Of a stretch of 55,910 nucleotides of DNA, positions 2,214-22,291 are shown in pieces. This DNA comes from a virus. Under the pieces are notes generated by a model. The model saw only the letters and a list, made by a program, of their open reading frames with translations, was not told the origin of the DNA and did not search any database. The DNA is taken from positions 1 to 55,910 of IMG/VR virus record IMGVR_UViG_3300049489_000776. One strand, 5' to 3'. The position numbers were made by a program, and so were the translations under genes. Each line of letters starts with the position of its first letter. Position 1 is the stretch's first letter.

Positions 2214-2435
2214 ATGGCTTCAACTTTTATTAATTTGCCTGCAGCGTCTACTTCAGCAGGAACTGTACAACTCTTTGATATACCTTTTGATACGATTACG
2301 GCTACTTATCCTTCTGCTACCGAAGAAGTTTACGCTTCAAGAGTTGGTGGAATTTCTGGAGCAGTGCAGCAAACGGTTACTGTAACTTATACTGATGCAA
2401 CGAAAGCTCTAATTCTTAACGTAGTGAGGACTTAG
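2214..2435 (+). CDS. Small structural protein of unknown function
   Basis: A 73-residue protein rich in Thr, Ala and Val with alternating beta-strand character (GTVQLFDIPFDTITATYP, QQTVTVTYTDATKALILNVV). It begins at an ATG two bases after the preceding gene and its TAG overlaps the GTG of the large tail fibre gene. It has no recognisable motif. Its place between a beta-sandwich virion protein and the fibre suggests a minor appendage component, which is inference from context only. Confidence 0.65.
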   Translation: MASTFINLPAASTSAGTVQLFDIPFDTITATYPSATEEVYASRVGGISGAVQQTVTVTYTDATKALILNVVRT

Positions 2436-5287
2436 TGCCTTTTAAGTTTAACCCGATTCAGGGCTCTTTAGACTTAGTTAACGCCGCAAGTTTAGGTGAT
2501 GTTGTAGGGCCTGCAAGCGCAACCGACAATGCTATTGCACGTTTTGATACCACTACTGGAAAATTAATTCAAAATTCTGGAATTTTAATAGATGATTTAA
2601 ATAATGTTACCGGAATAAATGAGCTAAATACTGCAGCTAAGGTTGAAGTAGGAGACCCTGGACTGGAAACCGCCGGAATAGATATTGCCGGTACGGTGTA
2701 TGCAACTAAACTAAGAGTGAATGACATTGGAGGGACTCAGCCAGCTCAGCAAGTTATTCATAGACACTCTACAACACTTCCAGCAGCTTTAATTGGGGCG
2801 CGGGCCAATTCAGATACAAGTGCTCATGCTAATGTGGCAAATAATCAAGTACTTTTTAGAATAGTGCCTGCCGGGTATGCTGGTACAAATTATAAAGCCT
2901 TTGGCTATATAGACTTTTTGGCCTCGACTGGCACAATTAGTGACACGTCCGCACCAAGTCGTATGGAGTTTTACACAGTGCCTAATGGCTCTTTGGCTCC
3001 AACTCTTGCAATGACTATAGGCTCTAATCAGGTTGTGGCTTTTGCAAATTCTCCTACCGGAGTAAATCATTTAAGTTTAAGTAATATTGGCACAAACACG
3101 CACGCCCAAATAGACACTCACATTGCTGATACCTCTATTCATACTCCTTTTTCTATTACTTCTGCGATAAACGGGCAGACTTTAAGATATGATTCGGGAA
3201 TTTCAAAATGGATTAACAATTCTACAATTAAAAACACGGGAACAGTCGCTATAGACTCTACTGCGGCCATAACTAATCAACCATATTCATTTTTAATTGA
3301 CCATGCTGCGACTAACTTGGTAGTTAATCCTAGTTGGGAAGTTAACATTACGGACGGCTGGTCAGCCACCGGAACCAGTACAAACACTAGAGACACTACA
3401 GAAAAGTGGATTGGTACCGCCTCCCTTAAAATTGTATCCTCTGTTATAGATTCTGGAGTTGTTAGCAGTGCTATTTCAGTAACTCCGAACACTCAATATG
3501 TTTATTCATGTTACGTTAAAGGTGCAGTTGGCGGGGAGCGTTTTTACATTTCTATAGACCCCAACGTAAGTGCAACTGTGGACAGTAATAATCAGGGAGT
3601 TTTAGCTGCGCTTACTATTTTAGACTCAGTTAACACTGACTGGTCAAGGCTAACTTTAGCATGGACTTCTGGAGCTAGTGATACTAGTGTTCAGTTGTAT
3701 TTACGGTCTGACACTGCAACGGCTCAAACTGTCTATGTAGACGCTGTTCAATTTGAGGCGAAGATATTACCTACAGATGCAAATGAAGTTGTTATTGCGT
3801 CTTCTTATTTAGATGGCAGCATGGGCGTTGGTTACACGTGGAACGGGGTTGCCCACAACTCGACTAGCACTCGAACGGCGGGTGCTAAATTTTTGGCTCC
3901 ACTTTCTTCTACAGCTAATAGGGGAAATCTTGTAGTAAGAACTGATGGTACCATTGCTAGATTTTTGGCTGATGCAAAGGAAATCCAATCTGCCGACATT
4001 GGTATAGCTCGCGTAGAGCCCAATTTCCCTTTTACGTTTACTGGAAACATGAAGACTAATGTAAATTCGAGTGGTATCTTAGCAGGTATTATGAATATTC
4101 GTAATACGGCAAATGGTACAGCACTTCACGTTGACTCTGCTGCAACGACTGCAGAAGGGTTTATCATAAGTGCTGCAAGTATTACTTCAGGCAGTTGTAT
4201 GTCGGTTTTTGCACCGAGCGATTTGACGGCGATGGCCGCTGCGAATGGCCGTTTTTTTACATTTAGCGGGAAAGCACAGAACGCTGACATGTACTCTTGG
4301 TATGTGGATAGAATGACAATTGGCCAACTTGGTTTCGCCTATGATAAGAATATAAACGTCTTTGGTGGCGGCTCTATGACTACTACGGCTCGCGCTTTAG
4401 CTGGTACAGTCTCTGTTACGGCTGCAAACGTTACGGTTACTGGCACGGGCACTGCTTTTTTAACAGATTTTAAGCGTGGACAGGCTATTAGAATAAACAA
4501 TGGCGGAGCGACAACAATAATTCATACCATAGCCTCAATAGCAAGTAACACTTCTTTAACATTAACTGCAGCGTGGAGTGGGGTTACAAATGCAGCCAGA
4601 ACTTATGACAGTTTCACTGCTCAATACCGTCCACCAACTATTCATCTTGAGGGCAGTTATGCAAATCACGGAGCTTCTGGTTCAACTTCTGGCGATTTTA
4701 TGTATGGAATATATGCTTCTGGTGGAAACGGCCAGCTTCATGTGTTTAAATCTGCTGCTCGCGGAGTTGCGGTTACACCTACGGCAGACCATGTAGGGAA
4801 TGGTTTAGTTACAGCAAGACAAGTATCTACAACTGACGGTTTAATTTTTGGCACAACTACTGAAACGACAATGATTTCAGGATACACAGTTCCTGCTTAT
4901 GAATTAACTCCTGGCGGCTCATTTAGAATTTCTTTTATAGGCACGATGGTTATAGACAATTCGGTAAGAACTTTAACTTGGAGAGTTAAACTTGGTGGGA
5001 CTACAATATTAACAAGCACTGCGGTTCAGGCCGGAGCTGCTGGAACTATAATCTTCAGAGGAGTTATTGATATTTATGCTCTAACAAATACGACTCAAAG
5101 ATGTAGTCTAAGTATTGTTGGAAAGGACCAAGCGGCGGTTACACCTGGACTTACATATTCTGTAAATAATTATTCTGGAGTCGGTGCCGTAGATATGAGA
5201 CTAGACCAAGCGCTCACTGTTACCGCACAAGTAGATGCAATAGGGCAAGTTATAAATGTGACTGGCTACACAACTGAAATATTATAG
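2435..5287 (+). CDS. Large tail-fibre / receptor-binding protein
   Basis: A 950-residue protein starting at GTG. The first 15 residues (MPFKFNPIQGSLDLV) are a recurrent N-terminal anchor of phage fibres. Residues about 25-60 carry the fibre repeat DNAIARFDTTTGKLIQNSG. A galactose-binding or CBM-like jelly-roll module is visible around residues 290-445, from NLVVNPSWEV through a YVDAVQFEA end. A beta-rich module with VTGTGTAFLTDFKRG follows near residue 665, and the C-terminus is Gly/Thr rich. No pectate-lyase or peptidase motif and no auto-cleaving chaperone domain is evident. It probably binds host surface glycans. Confidence 0.8.
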   Translation: MPFKFNPIQGSLDLVNAASLGDVVGPASATDNAIARFDTTTGKLIQNSGILIDDLNNVTGINELNTAAKVEVGDPGLETAGIDIAGTVYATKLRVNDIGGTQPAQQVIHRHSTTLPAALIGARANSDTSAHANVANNQVLFRIVPAGYAGTNYKAFGYIDFLASTGTISDTSAPSRMEFYTVPNGSLAPTLAMTIGSNQVVAFANSPTGVNHLSLSNIGTNTHAQIDTHIADTSIHTPFSITSAINGQTLRYDSGISKWINNSTIKNTGTVAIDSTAAITNQPYSFLIDHAATNLVVNPSWEVNITDGWSATGTSTNTRDTTEKWIGTASLKIVSSVIDSGVVSSAISVTPNTQYVYSCYVKGAVGGERFYISIDPNVSATVDSNNQGVLAALTILDSVNTDWSRLTLAWTSGASDTSVQLYLRSDTATAQTVYVDAVQFEAKILPTDANEVVIASSYLDGSMGVGYTWNGVAHNSTSTRTAGAKFLAPLSSTANRGNLVVRTDGTIARFLADAKEIQSADIGIARVEPNFPFTFTGNMKTNVNSSGILAGIMNIRNTANGTALHVDSAATTAEGFIISAASITSGSCMSVFAPSDLTAMAAANGRFFTFSGKAQNADMYSWYVDRMTIGQLGFAYDKNINVFGGGSMTTTARALAGTVSVTAANVTVTGTGTAFLTDFKRGQAIRINNGGATTIIHTIASIASNTSLTLTAAWSGVTNAARTYDSFTAQYRPPTIHLEGSYANHGASGSTSGDFMYGIYASGGNGQLHVFKSAARGVAVTPTADHVGNGLVTARQVSTTDGLIFGTTTETTMISGYTVPAYELTPGGSFRISFIGTMVIDNSVRTLTWRVKLGGTTILTSTAVQAGAAGTIIFRGVIDIYALTNTTQRCSLSIVGKDQAAVTPGLTYSVNNYSGVGAVDMRLDQALTVTAQVDAIGQVINVTGYTTEIL

Positions 5288-14153: not shown

Positions 14154-14319
14154 TTTTAGTTACTCCTTTTGAATGTAGCTCCATTGCTACTAGAACATTT
14201 ACTATAACATCTATTTCTACGTTTGACAAGTTTGAAACGGCGTTCAAAAAGTTTAAGGTTTCTACGTTTAACTCTAGGTCTACAGACTTCCATGATTTAG
14301 GTGCTTTAAGTTTACTCAT
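14107..14319 (-). CDS. Small hypothetical protein after the methyltransferase
   Basis: A 70-residue protein with a hydrophobic helical middle (VEIDVIVNVLVAMELHS) and a Lys-rich tail. It starts at an ATG overlapping the methyltransferase stop. No family is recognised. The 3' end overlaps the next gene by 47 bases. Confidence 0.6.
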   Translation of the reverse strand: MSKLKAPKSWKSVDLELNVETLNFLNAVSNLSNVEIDVIVNVLVAMELHSKGVTKSEKKSNKTKGKVKKF

Positions 14320-15110
14320 TTTAACCCCATTAATCTTTTAAAAGCTACTTCAACTTGGAGCGGAGCCACGGCATTACCAAGGGACTTATTTCGGTCCACG
14401 AGGTTGGGTAGCCCATCAACCATTCGACCCACTGAGGGTTCAGTTTTCCAAAAGTCTGACCTGTAGGCTTCATCATATCCGTGCATGGAGTTTCCCCGGA
14501 ATTCGCTACTTGCTCCGCAAGATTGCCTGGAGGGACAGTTGTCCTGCCCGAACTTGCTCTCCAAGCTTTCCTGTACTCTAGAGCCTCCTTCGACCGGGCT
14601 CCTATTGACGTTGCGGTTGGAGTGAGCCAATAAGAACCAGCGCTCCCTTTTATGCGGGGCTCCAAGGCTTGCGGCGCTAAGACACGTCCAGCGACAGTCA
14701 TACCCGATTTTGGTAAATTCCCGTATAACTGTAGATAGTCCTCTAGTTCTAATGGCTGGCACGTTTTCGAGGAAGACGAATTTTGGGTTGACTTCTTTGG
14801 TAAGTCTGATAATTTCTGAGAATAAACCACTTCGCTTTCCTTCCAAGCCTGCTCCAAGACCTGCAGTGCTGATGTCCTGGCAGGGAAATCCGCCGTAGAT
14901 AATCTCGACCCCACTAGGTAACACGGAGCCAGTAAGCGATGTAACGTCGTCCCAGATTGGAGCTCTAGGCAATTGCCCATCTGCAATTCTTGACAGCAGC
15001 ACCGATTGTGCAAACTTGTCTTTTTCACAATAGGCAATTGGTCGCACCCAGTTTGAGAGTCCGAGTGTGATGCCTCCGATTCCAGAAAACAAATCCACCC
15101 CATGTAGCAT
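14316..15110 (-). CDS. DNA cytosine-5 methyltransferase
   Basis: A 264-residue C5 methyltransferase with motif I DLFSGIGG (6-13), motif IV GGFPCQDIS with catalytic Cys77, motif VI LENVPA (Glu115), motif VIII KRERWF (154-159) and a C-terminal motif X-like KSLGNAV. The target-recognition region is short, so the site cannot be predicted. It probably protects phage DNA from host restriction. The whole gene is overlapped in a second frame by 14345-15103, which also looks conserved. It is preceded by GGAAGGAC. Confidence 0.93.
   Translation of the reverse strand: MLHGVDLFSGIGGITLGLSNWVRPIAYCEKDKFAQSVLLSRIADGQLPRAPIWDDVTSLTGSVLPSGVEIIYGGFPCQDISTAGLGAGLEGKRSGLFSEIIRLTKEVNPKFVFLENVPAIRTRGLSTVIREFTKIGYDCRWTCLSAASLGAPHKRERWFLLAHSNRNVNRSPVEGGSRVQESLESKFGQDNCPSRQSCGASSEFRGNSMHGYDEAYRSDFWKTEPSVGRMVDGLPNLVDRNKSLGNAVAPLQVEVAFKRLMGLK
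14345..15103 (-). CDS. Overprinted protein inside the methyltransferase gene (second reading frame)
   Basis: A 252-residue frame open on the same strand, starting seven bases inside the methyltransferase. Its translation has a mosaic I recall from phage and bacterial hypothetical proteins near C5 methyltransferases: ADFPARTS, SSSSKTCQ, LPKSGMTVAGRVL, SYWLTPTATSIG and a C-terminal KLNPQWVEWLMGYPTSW. These are in the order expected for that family and are not methyltransferase motifs. No independent ribosome site is obvious. It may be translated, or be a conserved shadow frame. The evidence is pattern recall, so confidence is moderate. Confidence 0.45.
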   Translation of the reverse strand: MGWICFLESEASHSDSQTGCDQLPIVKKTSLHNRCCCQELQMGNCLELQSGTTLHRLLAPCYLVGSRLSTADFPARTSALQVLEQAWKESEVVYSQKLSDLPKKSTQNSSSSKTCQPLELEDYLQLYGNLPKSGMTVAGRVLAPQALEPRIKGSAGSYWLTPTATSIGARSKEALEYRKAWRASSGRTTVPPGNLAEQVANSGETPCTDMMKPTGQTFGKLNPQWVEWLMGYPTSWTEISPLVMPWLRSKLK

Positions 15111-15121
15111 ATGTCCTTCCT

Positions 15122-15532
15122 TTAGTGATTAAACATTTCTGCGTCTAACTCAGTCTTAAGACTATCATAGAAGTTGCAAATTTGCAAGTTTGTGTTCATG
15201 TAGGTAATACCTTCCAAATGGACTCTCCCAAGAACTGCGTGGCCCATTTCATGAAAAATTAGGGCTCGCCTTTGACTGGGGCAGGCGTACTTCCAAGAGG
15301 CAGGATTGATTAAAATAGTTATAAAGCCCTCGGAGCCTTTTATAAACCGTCCGGCCTCATCTCCATATAATTCTGCAAATTCTACAGTAATGCGGTCTTG
15401 AGACGTTTGGGCCAAAGCATTAAACTCGGCTACGTAAGGAGCCAGTTCGGGGTTAATTTGACCTTTATCAGGCTGACCACATGCAGAGCTAAAAACGGCT
15501 AATACGCTAATTAATATTCTGACTATTAACAC
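15122..15532 (-). CDS. HEMGH zinc metalloprotease-like lipoprotein
   Basis: A 136-residue protein with an N-terminal lipoprotein signal (LISVLAVFSSAC, Cys18 as lipidation site) and a zinc-peptidase helix LIFHEMGHAV with His94, Glu95 and His98. The third ligand is not clear; a Glu or Asp in the C-terminal KTELDAEMFNH is possible. It would sit on the periplasmic face of a membrane. Similar small metalloprotease-like lipoproteins occur in phages, but their targets are unknown. It overlaps the upstream exported protein by 26 bases. Confidence 0.78.
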   Translation of the reverse strand: MLIVRILISVLAVFSSACGQPDKGQINPELAPYVAEFNALAQTSQDRITVEFAELYGDEAGRFIKGSEGFITILINPASWKYACPSQRRALIFHEMGHAVLGRVHLEGITYMNTNLQICNFYDSLKTELDAEMFNH

Positions 15533-21129: not shown

Positions 21130-21335
21130 TTTAAATCTCCTTCTTTGGTTTCTAGTTTGGCGGTTTCTAGTTCTATAGCTCTGATTTGGGCGACCACGGA
21201 CGCTTTTAGGATGTAAGGACCCTTTTCAGCATCTGGGTACTTTACATAAAAGCCCGATTCTAGGCCTTTTGCGCGTCTTAAATCTTGCATGTTTAACTCT
21301 CGGTTTACTATTCTTGCAGGCATGTAGCGACTCAT
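21126..21335 (-). CDS. Small hypothetical protein
   Basis: A 69-residue protein (MSRYMPARIVNRELNMQDLR) containing a GFYVKYPDAEKGPYILKA segment and a helical acidic tail. It is coupled by four-base overlaps to both neighbours. No family is recognised. Confidence 0.62.
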   Translation of the reverse strand: MSRYMPARIVNRELNMQDLRRAKGLESGFYVKYPDAEKGPYILKASVVAQIRAIELETAKLETKEGDLK

Positions 21336-22291
21336 TTTTTGGCTCCTTTGTTTGTTTTAGCTTCATATTGTTTTAAAGATTTTATAAAGCGGCCATAGGC
21401 ATTTATTTGAGCAGGGGTGTACTTTTCTTTTGTGCCTATTTTTCGAAAATTTTGTAGCCAGTATTTAAGAGTGCCTGTGTGACAACCTATTCTGAGGTGA
21501 CCTGCAAAGTAGCAGGCTAGATGCTTTTCAAATTGAAATTCTAGTTTTAGGCTACTTTTAATTTCTACTTTTTGCTCACTTTCCATTATATAGGCTCCGC
21601 TTAAATCGGCTCCGCTTAAATCGGCTCTGCTTAAATAGGCTCCGCTTAAATCGGCTTCGCTTAAATTGGCTCTGCTTAAATCGGCTTCGCTTAAATCGGC
21701 TCCGCTTAAATCGGCTCCGCTTAAATCGGCTCCGCTTAAATTGGCTCTGCTTAAATCGGCTCCGCTTAAATCGGCTCCGCTTAAATTGGCTTCGCCTAAA
21801 TTGGCTCTGCTTAAATAGGCTCCGCTTAAATCGGCTCCGCTTAAATTGGCTCTGCTTAAATAGGCTCTGCTTAAATCGGCTTCGCTTAAATCGGCTCCGC
21901 TTAAATCGGCTCCGCTTAAATCGGCTTCGCTTAAATCGGCTCCGCTTAAATCGGCTCCGCTTAAATTGGCTTCGCCTAAATTGGCTCTGCTTAAATTGGC
22001 TTCGCCTAAATTGGCTCTGCTTAAATAGGCTCCGCTTAAATCGGCTCCGCTTAAATTGGCTTCGCCTAAATTGGCTTCGCCTAAATTGGCTCTGCTTAAA
22101 TTGGCTCTGCTTAAATAGGCTCCGCTTAAATCGGCTTCGCTTAAATCGGCTCCGCTTAAATCGGCTCCGCTTAAATTGGCTTCGCCTAAATTGGCTCTGC
22201 TTAAATAGGCTCTGCTTAAATAGGCACGCACTCCAGTTTGTTCATTGTTTAACCAGAGTTGGTGTCGTTTTAAAACTTCTTGTAAGTTCAC
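21332..22291 (-). CDS. Large pentapeptide-repeat protein
   Basis: A 319-residue protein. The N-terminus (LQEVLKRHQLWLNNEQTG) is a common lead-in for phage pentapeptide proteins. About 42 consecutive A(D/N)LSx repeats follow, forming a long right-handed quadrilateral beta-helix. The last 85 residues are non-repetitive and helical (HLACYFAGHLRIG, YWLQNFRKIGTKEKYTPAQI). Pentapeptide proteins can mimic DNA and act on gyrase, or serve as scaffolds; here neither is proven. It has its own promoter (22324-22352). Confidence 0.9.
   Translation of the reverse strand: MNLQEVLKRHQLWLNNEQTGVRAYLSRAYLSRANLGEANLSGADLSGADLSEADLSGAYLSRANLSRANLGEANLGEANLSGADLSGAYLSRANLGEANLSRANLGEANLSGADLSGADLSEADLSGADLSGADLSEADLSRAYLSRANLSGADLSGAYLSRANLGEANLSGADLSGADLSRANLSGADLSGADLSGADLSEADLSRANLSEADLSGAYLSRADLSGADLSGAYIMESEQKVEIKSSLKLEFQFEKHLACYFAGHLRIGCHTGTLKYWLQNFRKIGTKEKYTPAQINAYGRFIKSLKQYEAKTNKGAKK
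21596..22228 (-). repeat. 15-base tandem repeat encoding pentapeptides
   Basis: About 42 tandem 15-base units of the form TTAAATCGGCTCCGC (plus-strand sense) with a few alternating variants. Blocks of four to six variant units recur in the same order, which indicates recent expansion by unequal crossing or slippage. Confidence 0.95.

Follow-up and report, generated by a model that had tools for sequence, protein, structure and literature searches.

The window, that is the whole stretch of DNA analysed here, is a virus contig of 55,910 bases, and all positions given for it refer to its full length. On its minus strand lies a C5 DNA methyltransferase gene (alpha frame), in which a second open frame on the same strand (beta frame) is wholly nested at an offset of +1 and covers 252 of the 264 codons (Table 1). 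A preliminary description of this DNA had reported the methyltransferase gene to be open in a second frame; this open reading frame was confirmed, and the five motifs quoted from it are all present in the beta translation in the order given there. One AAGGAAGG precedes both starts, 4 nt before alpha and 11 nt before beta, and may serve both of them, and a scan for promoters and terminators returned signals at background level. The methyltransferase gene is adjoined by a small protein (15122–15532, minus strand) that has a lipoprotein-like start and a zinc-metalloprotease-like motif, HEMGHAVLGR, and no Pfam match. Elsewhere, the window encodes a pentapeptide-repeat protein of 319 aa (21332–22291, minus strand; PF00805, E = 1.5e-78) and a 950-aa protein with a carbohydrate-binding domain (2435–5287, plus strand; PF02018, E = 6e-8).

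Table 1. Features of the methyltransferase locus in the 55,910-base window
Feature	Position	Strand	Evidence
Alpha frame, C5 DNA methyltransferase, 264 aa, motifs I–VIII and X	14316..15110	−	ORF, Pfam, PHROG, AlphaFold2, Foldseek
Beta frame (+1), proposed target-recognition and motif IX subunit, 252 aa	14345..15103	−	ORF, phrog_1008, stop and codon-pair tests, profile match to the in-frame TRD/IX part of ShiLan gp70
Shine-Dalgarno-like AAGGAAGG	15115..15122	−	Sequence; function inferred
Alpha start codon ATG	15108..15110	−	Sequence, aligned start region of homologues
Beta ATG start, 7 nt past the alpha start	15101..15103	−	Aligned homologue starts
Alpha motif IV GGFPCQD (catalytic Cys), read as ADFPARTS by beta in +1	14874..14894	−	Translations; invariant in alignment
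Alpha motif VIII region HKRERWF, where the confidently predicted catalytic core ends	14634..14654	−	Translation, alignment, AlphaFold2
Alpha residues 170–235, where TRD and motif IX would be expected; largely unconserved and predicted to be disordered (filler under beta)	14406..14603	−	pLDDT, pair alignments, motif IX profile
Beta PTPxAxD-type module (WLTPTATS...NLAEQV), proposed target recognition	14507..14629	−	Near-invariant residues; in-frame module of ShiLan gp70
Beta motif-IX-like LNPQWVEWLMGYPTSW	14396..14443	−	Best canonical motif IX PSSM site in window beta
Alpha motif X region, residues 237–261, KSLGNAVAP	14328..14402	−	AlphaFold2 helices, hhalign

We fetched 80 viral loci by the methyltransferase sequence only, so that the sample has no bias towards the hidden frame. 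Every one of the 80 (GC 0.41–0.63) has an open +1 frame of 228–342 codons, and the +2 frame of the same loci contains 4–31 stops. As the null model, synonymous codons were shuffled within each gene, which keeps both the protein sequence and the codon usage fixed. Under this model 7.6 stops are expected in the +1 frame of the window gene but none is observed, and its longest +1 ORF has 254 codons, compared with 129 at the 95th percentile of the shuffled genes. Among 116 non-redundant genes, 164 stops are found in the +1 frame whereas 803 are expected, and the +2 control shows 1807 stops against 1686 expected. Moreover, 66 divergent genes picked by methyltransferase similarity alone have no +1 stop at all over window residues 26–243; for residues 71–224 about 229 are expected. 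These numbers agree with the earlier claim that chance would not keep such a frame open.

The codon-pair test points in the same direction: an NTA codon never stands before A or G (279 expected) and an NTG codon never before A (208 expected), although the homologues are related and neither these nor the stop counts are independent events. In the methyltransferase frame, Met is followed by a codon starting with A in 0 of 178 cases (45 expected), a constraint that acts on the methyltransferase protein itself. In 24 ordinary monomeric C5 methyltransferases that have their own motif IX, used as a control, +1 stops (428 observed, 417 expected) and Met before A (38 of 132, 41 expected) are close to expectation. 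Typical homologue pairs differ at about half of their third positions. Third-position divergence is 0.50 in the methyltransferase and 0.62 in neighbouring genes at 60–70% identity (few control pairs), and 0.11 and 0.31, respectively, at 80–90% identity (few pairs in both the control and the methyltransferase bins). Selection on the second frame beyond that imposed by the first is seen in the avoidance of stops and codon pairs, and third-position divergence is lower than that of the neighbours. The identity of the hidden frame under synonymous shuffling is also high, yet that of the +2 control is raised too; because relatives share codons, which raises the control, this identity is not used as proof.

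The start of beta is conserved as well. An ATG lies at one fixed aligned place, 4–7 nt past the methyltransferase start, in 52 of the 67 genes (ATGTTAAATGG, ATGAATGG, GTGAATGG), and 6 further genes have GTG or TTG there. Most genes in which this ATG is lost or weakened have an upstream in-frame ATG or GTG that gives MWxYL or MAWIYL, the latter being the usual form. With several of these upstream starts the first residues of beta precede the methyltransferase start, so the methyltransferase cannot impose them. Because +1 stops are depleted, the risky codon pairs are avoided, the controls show no depletion and the start is conserved, a second protein is almost certainly encoded here. We regard it as practically certain that the overprinted second gene at this locus is real, and translation of beta is probable, to judge from selection on its frame.

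The alpha product alone does not have the parts of a complete C5 methyltransferase. It matches PF00145 (E = 2.6e-39) only over residues 4–176, and phrog_363 with E = 8.9e-61; its core motifs I–VIII, with PCQ, ENV and RER, consist of invariant or nearly invariant residues. AlphaFold2 models motif X, with confident helices at 237–261, and most of the core at pLDDT values above 90, and Foldseek matches the core to M.HhaI and M.HaeIII. Homology to the solved methyltransferases stops near residue 171, and blocks with pLDDT of 41–53 make up most of the stretch from about 170 to 235. After this variable region comes motif X (LGNAV), which hhalign aligns to the canonical motif X, and the canonical motif IX PSSM scores on alpha at the level of shuffled sequences. 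In an alignment test of the target-recognition (TRD) region, with 2145 pairs from 66 genes scored against shuffled sequences, 46% of the pairs exceed the shuffled level in the hidden frame, compared with 11% in the known frame and 10% in the +2 control. A monomeric C5 methyltransferase has a TRD and motif IX in frame; alpha has neither. Alpha makes the catalytic half of the enzyme, and the TRD and motif IX information is lost from it.

Beta matches phrog_1008 (E = 1.3e-15), and the same holds for each of the 39 proteins in a diverse beta alignment. Beta has no model match in Pfam or NCBIfam and none in the PADLOC defence library. The names of the entries phrog_1008, phrog_26627, phrog_27243 and phrog_31772 are "DNA methyltransferase" or unknown, nothing in the entries examined mentions an overlap with a methyltransferase in another frame, and the PHROG family that is named "DNA methyltransferase" shows no catalytic domain here. 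In the PTPxAxD-type module of beta, T161 and P162 are near-invariant. Beta also has a motif-IX-like site, LNPxWVEWLMGYP (LNPQWVEWLMGYP), and the canonical motif IX PSSM scores best at LNPxWVEWLMG in 81 of the 111 beta proteins, with the resemblance over 13 residues being weak in absolute terms (median PSSM score −4.7, against 48.7 for canonical motifs). A profile-profile search of beta against canonical methyltransferases with hhalign was not significant. AlphaFold2 gives beta alone no confident fold (pLDDT 62, pTM 0.25; the N-terminal half is mostly low), and a Foldseek search with this model found nothing.

The place of beta in the enzyme becomes clearer from relatives in which the same parts are arranged differently. 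Gp70 of Mycobacterium phage ShiLan has, in one frame, motifs I–VIII (residues 6–174), a segment matching the beta profile (236–351; domain E = 3e-11), which includes PTPxAxD modules and LAPAFSEWMMGWPAGW, and motif X (358–383). Gp4 of Gordonia phage JKSyngboy is likewise a single chain, with a shorter match to the beta profile (domain E = 6.7e-6) and an IX-like site. In Mycobacterium phages Avle17 (gp79/gp78, 23-nt overlap) and Vorrps (gp6/gp5, 209-nt overlap) the enzyme is split into two genes overlapping at +1, the first with motifs I–VIII and the second with TRD, IX and X. The gene layout of Vorrps recurs in Mori gp6/gp5, and a locus in an archaeal MAG (L255) is similarly split. The nested form is found in the Paenibacillus phages Sitara and Rani (P. 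larvae), where it is annotated as "internal gene". The single-chain forms of ShiLan and JKSyngboy and the split forms of Avle17 and Vorrps indicate that beta takes the position held by the TRD and motif IX in a C5 methyltransferase. It is therefore probable, as judged from the sequences, that beta supplies the TRD and motif IX as a second subunit of the same enzyme. ShiLan also retains a +1 ORF (1648–2106 of L310, 153 codons) that still matches the hidden-frame profile (74–204, E = 1.6e-19) and may be either a relic or a second product.

The hidden frame is found in many bacteria as well as in phages. The preliminary description had placed such a protein family at C5 methyltransferase loci, and the matches bear this out. 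At least 350 relatives were confirmed with the hidden-frame profile in bacterial and archaeal genomes. Among the best 80 of these loci, 78 overlap a C5 methyltransferase at +1 by an automatic check. L249 was recognized on inspection as the 79th that overlaps one, and L242 keeps just a short C-terminal remnant. The best 80 loci span Proteobacteria, Bacteroidota, Bacillota, Nitrospirota, Actinomycetota, Verrucomicrobia and one Euryarchaeota MAG. In class samples, the profile matches in 17 of 385 and 23 of 391 genomes, some of these matches being partial shadows with stops. In most of the records examined, annotation covers the methyltransferase frame alone. The possibility of a standalone hidden-frame family was rejected on the 78 of the best 80 loci that overlap at +1.

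Several loci depart from the common arrangement. L265 and L268 are the only class-wide matches without a match to the C5 profile. L268 (1–1329; from a genome of the class of L220/G007) has an ORF with a zinc-finger/HNH-looking N-terminus and a beta-type tail, WQTPTSS...LNPEFVCWLMGFPKEW, with no C5 frame. On the minus strand of L265, at about 1501–1713, a beta-type tail, LNPLFVEALMGWPTGW, follows an adenine-type methyltransferase, and another frame holds a C5 motif IX–X remnant broken by a stop. In the hidden frame of L249 (2029–3111; Roseburia MAG), several PTPxA-type modules stand in tandem between motif VIII and an LNPYWVEWLMG site. In a prophage of E. coli PCP07014 (L307, about position 1862), the methyltransferase is flagged as a pseudogene, and its TGA and a TAG in the hidden frame lie within a few bases of each other, which is consistent with joint loss of both frames. 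In a prophage of E. coli ECCTRSRTH03 (L374, 2493–3662), RefSeq records two "incomplete" methyltransferase pseudogene pieces; a single ORF of 404 codons (2448–3659) runs through both pieces, with the +1 frame open for 343 codons and several PTPxA modules, and this locus looks like an intact nested pair wrongly called a pseudogene.

We considered three other explanations of the locus. Beta could be an independent overprinted phage protein, for example an anti-restriction or regulatory one, that has no role in methylation. It would then be understandable that beta matches no known fold, that its N-terminal half over motifs I–VIII has no counterpart in single-chain methyltransferases and that the beta tail occurs without an intact C5 frame at L265 and L268. 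However, ShiLan gp70 and JKSyngboy gp4 hold the beta segment between motifs VIII and X of one chain, Avle17 and Vorrps have it joined to motif X, alpha has no TRD or motif IX of its own, and the +1 overlap with a C5 methyltransferase recurs in 78 of the best 80 bacterial loci, all of which makes an independent protein unlikely. Programmed frameshifting, by which the ribosome would leave alpha for the +1 frame after motif VIII and return before motif X to make one chain, is in our estimate very unlikely: the frames are indeed +1 and the single-chain relatives resemble the expected final product, but each molecule would require two shifts, beta possesses a conserved start close to the beginning of the gene and its frame stays open across the whole upstream part, for which frameshifting has no need, and the second gene has its own start in the split relatives. 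Least probable of all is that the +1 frame is an untranslated shadow whose openness and motifs follow from conserved methyltransferase residues and codon bias, for although ADFPARTS under GGFPCQD and some other motifs are partly dictated by the methyltransferase and other C5 methyltransferases show partial shadow similarity with several stops, stops vanish against shuffles that fix protein and codon usage, canonical methyltransferases lack the depletion, codons beginning with A are avoided after Met in the known frame itself, the beta start codon is conserved and the TRD region is better conserved in the hidden than in the known frame. A shadow produced by codon bias is ruled out by the synonymous shuffles together with the canonical control. 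The preliminary description had left the choice between two translated frames and a shadow; the codon-pair and control tests speak against the shadow, and selection argues for two coding frames.

Two-polypeptide C5 methyltransferases have precedent. The small subunit of M.EcoHK31I, the closest case, is encoded inside the large-subunit gene in another frame, and M.EaeI is a two-polypeptide C5 methyltransferase as well. The window resembles this M.EcoHK31I gene arrangement in that beta is nested in the alpha gene in another frame. The large subunit of M.EcoHK31I carries motifs I–VIII and X together with the predicted TRD and the small subunit carries motif IX, M.AquI consists of two polypeptides split between motifs VIII and IX, and artificially split C5 methyltransferases complement too (PMC3404938). 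By motif layout, the window is like M.EcoHK31I in having a catalytic chain with I–VIII and X and motif IX on a second chain. The window differs from M.EcoHK31I in that the beta frame takes up 252 of the 264 codons and begins 7 nt past the alpha start, and in that target recognition, placed in the large subunit there, seems to reside on beta. The Avle17 and Vorrps pairs share the split layout of M.AquI, with a +1 overlap, whereas in the window motif X is on alpha and beta is entirely nested. ShiLan gp70 and JKSyngboy gp4 share motifs I–VIII, an IX-like site and motif X with the window, and ShiLan also the PTPxAxD modules, but they are in one frame and need no second protein. In the phage methylase gene gp65, the second protein in another frame is a homing endonuclease from a mobile insertion, which, unlike beta, does not overlap the methylase's own coding sequence. 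No paper on the present overprint was found in the literature searched. What looks new in the sources searched is how widely it is spread, how nearly complete the overlap is, the modular make-up of the recognition part and the missing annotation.

Taken together, the nested alpha and beta frames very likely form one methyltransferase, on the evidence of sequence comparison. One stretch of DNA would then encode a two-polypeptide C5 DNA methyltransferase. Alpha would provide motifs I–VIII, with AdoMet binding and the catalytic Cys, and motif X, with filler replacing the TRD and motif IX. Beta would be initiated 7 nt downstream from the same ribosome-binding site and read in +1 through nearly the whole gene, and its C-terminal half would give PTPxAxD target recognition and a putative motif IX. 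The two chains may pair into an active methyltransferase of phage DNA; we infer the translation of beta, its pairing with alpha and its role in DNA recognition. More tentatively, C5 methyltransferases whose target-recognition half is overprinted at +1 could form a large class that is widespread in phages and prophages. One to several tandem PTPxAxD modules would then be exchangeable recognition units, changes in specificity would arise in the hidden frame with the visible one merely tolerating filler, and the N-terminal half of beta over the catalytic core would be a further new domain.

If the two-polypeptide reading is true, many "DNA cytosine methyltransferase" genes that are annotated as complete encode half an enzyme, and annotation misses the other half, by which the DNA target is selected. 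This could explain cloned phage methylases that are inactive or unpredictable, genes mislabelled as pseudogenes and a PHROG family that is named "DNA methyltransferase" but shows no catalytic domain here. The locus would also be an example of a same-strand overprint in prokaryotes that is long, conserved across many genomes and well controlled, and a testable case for how an enzyme's single-chain, split and nested forms relate to each other.
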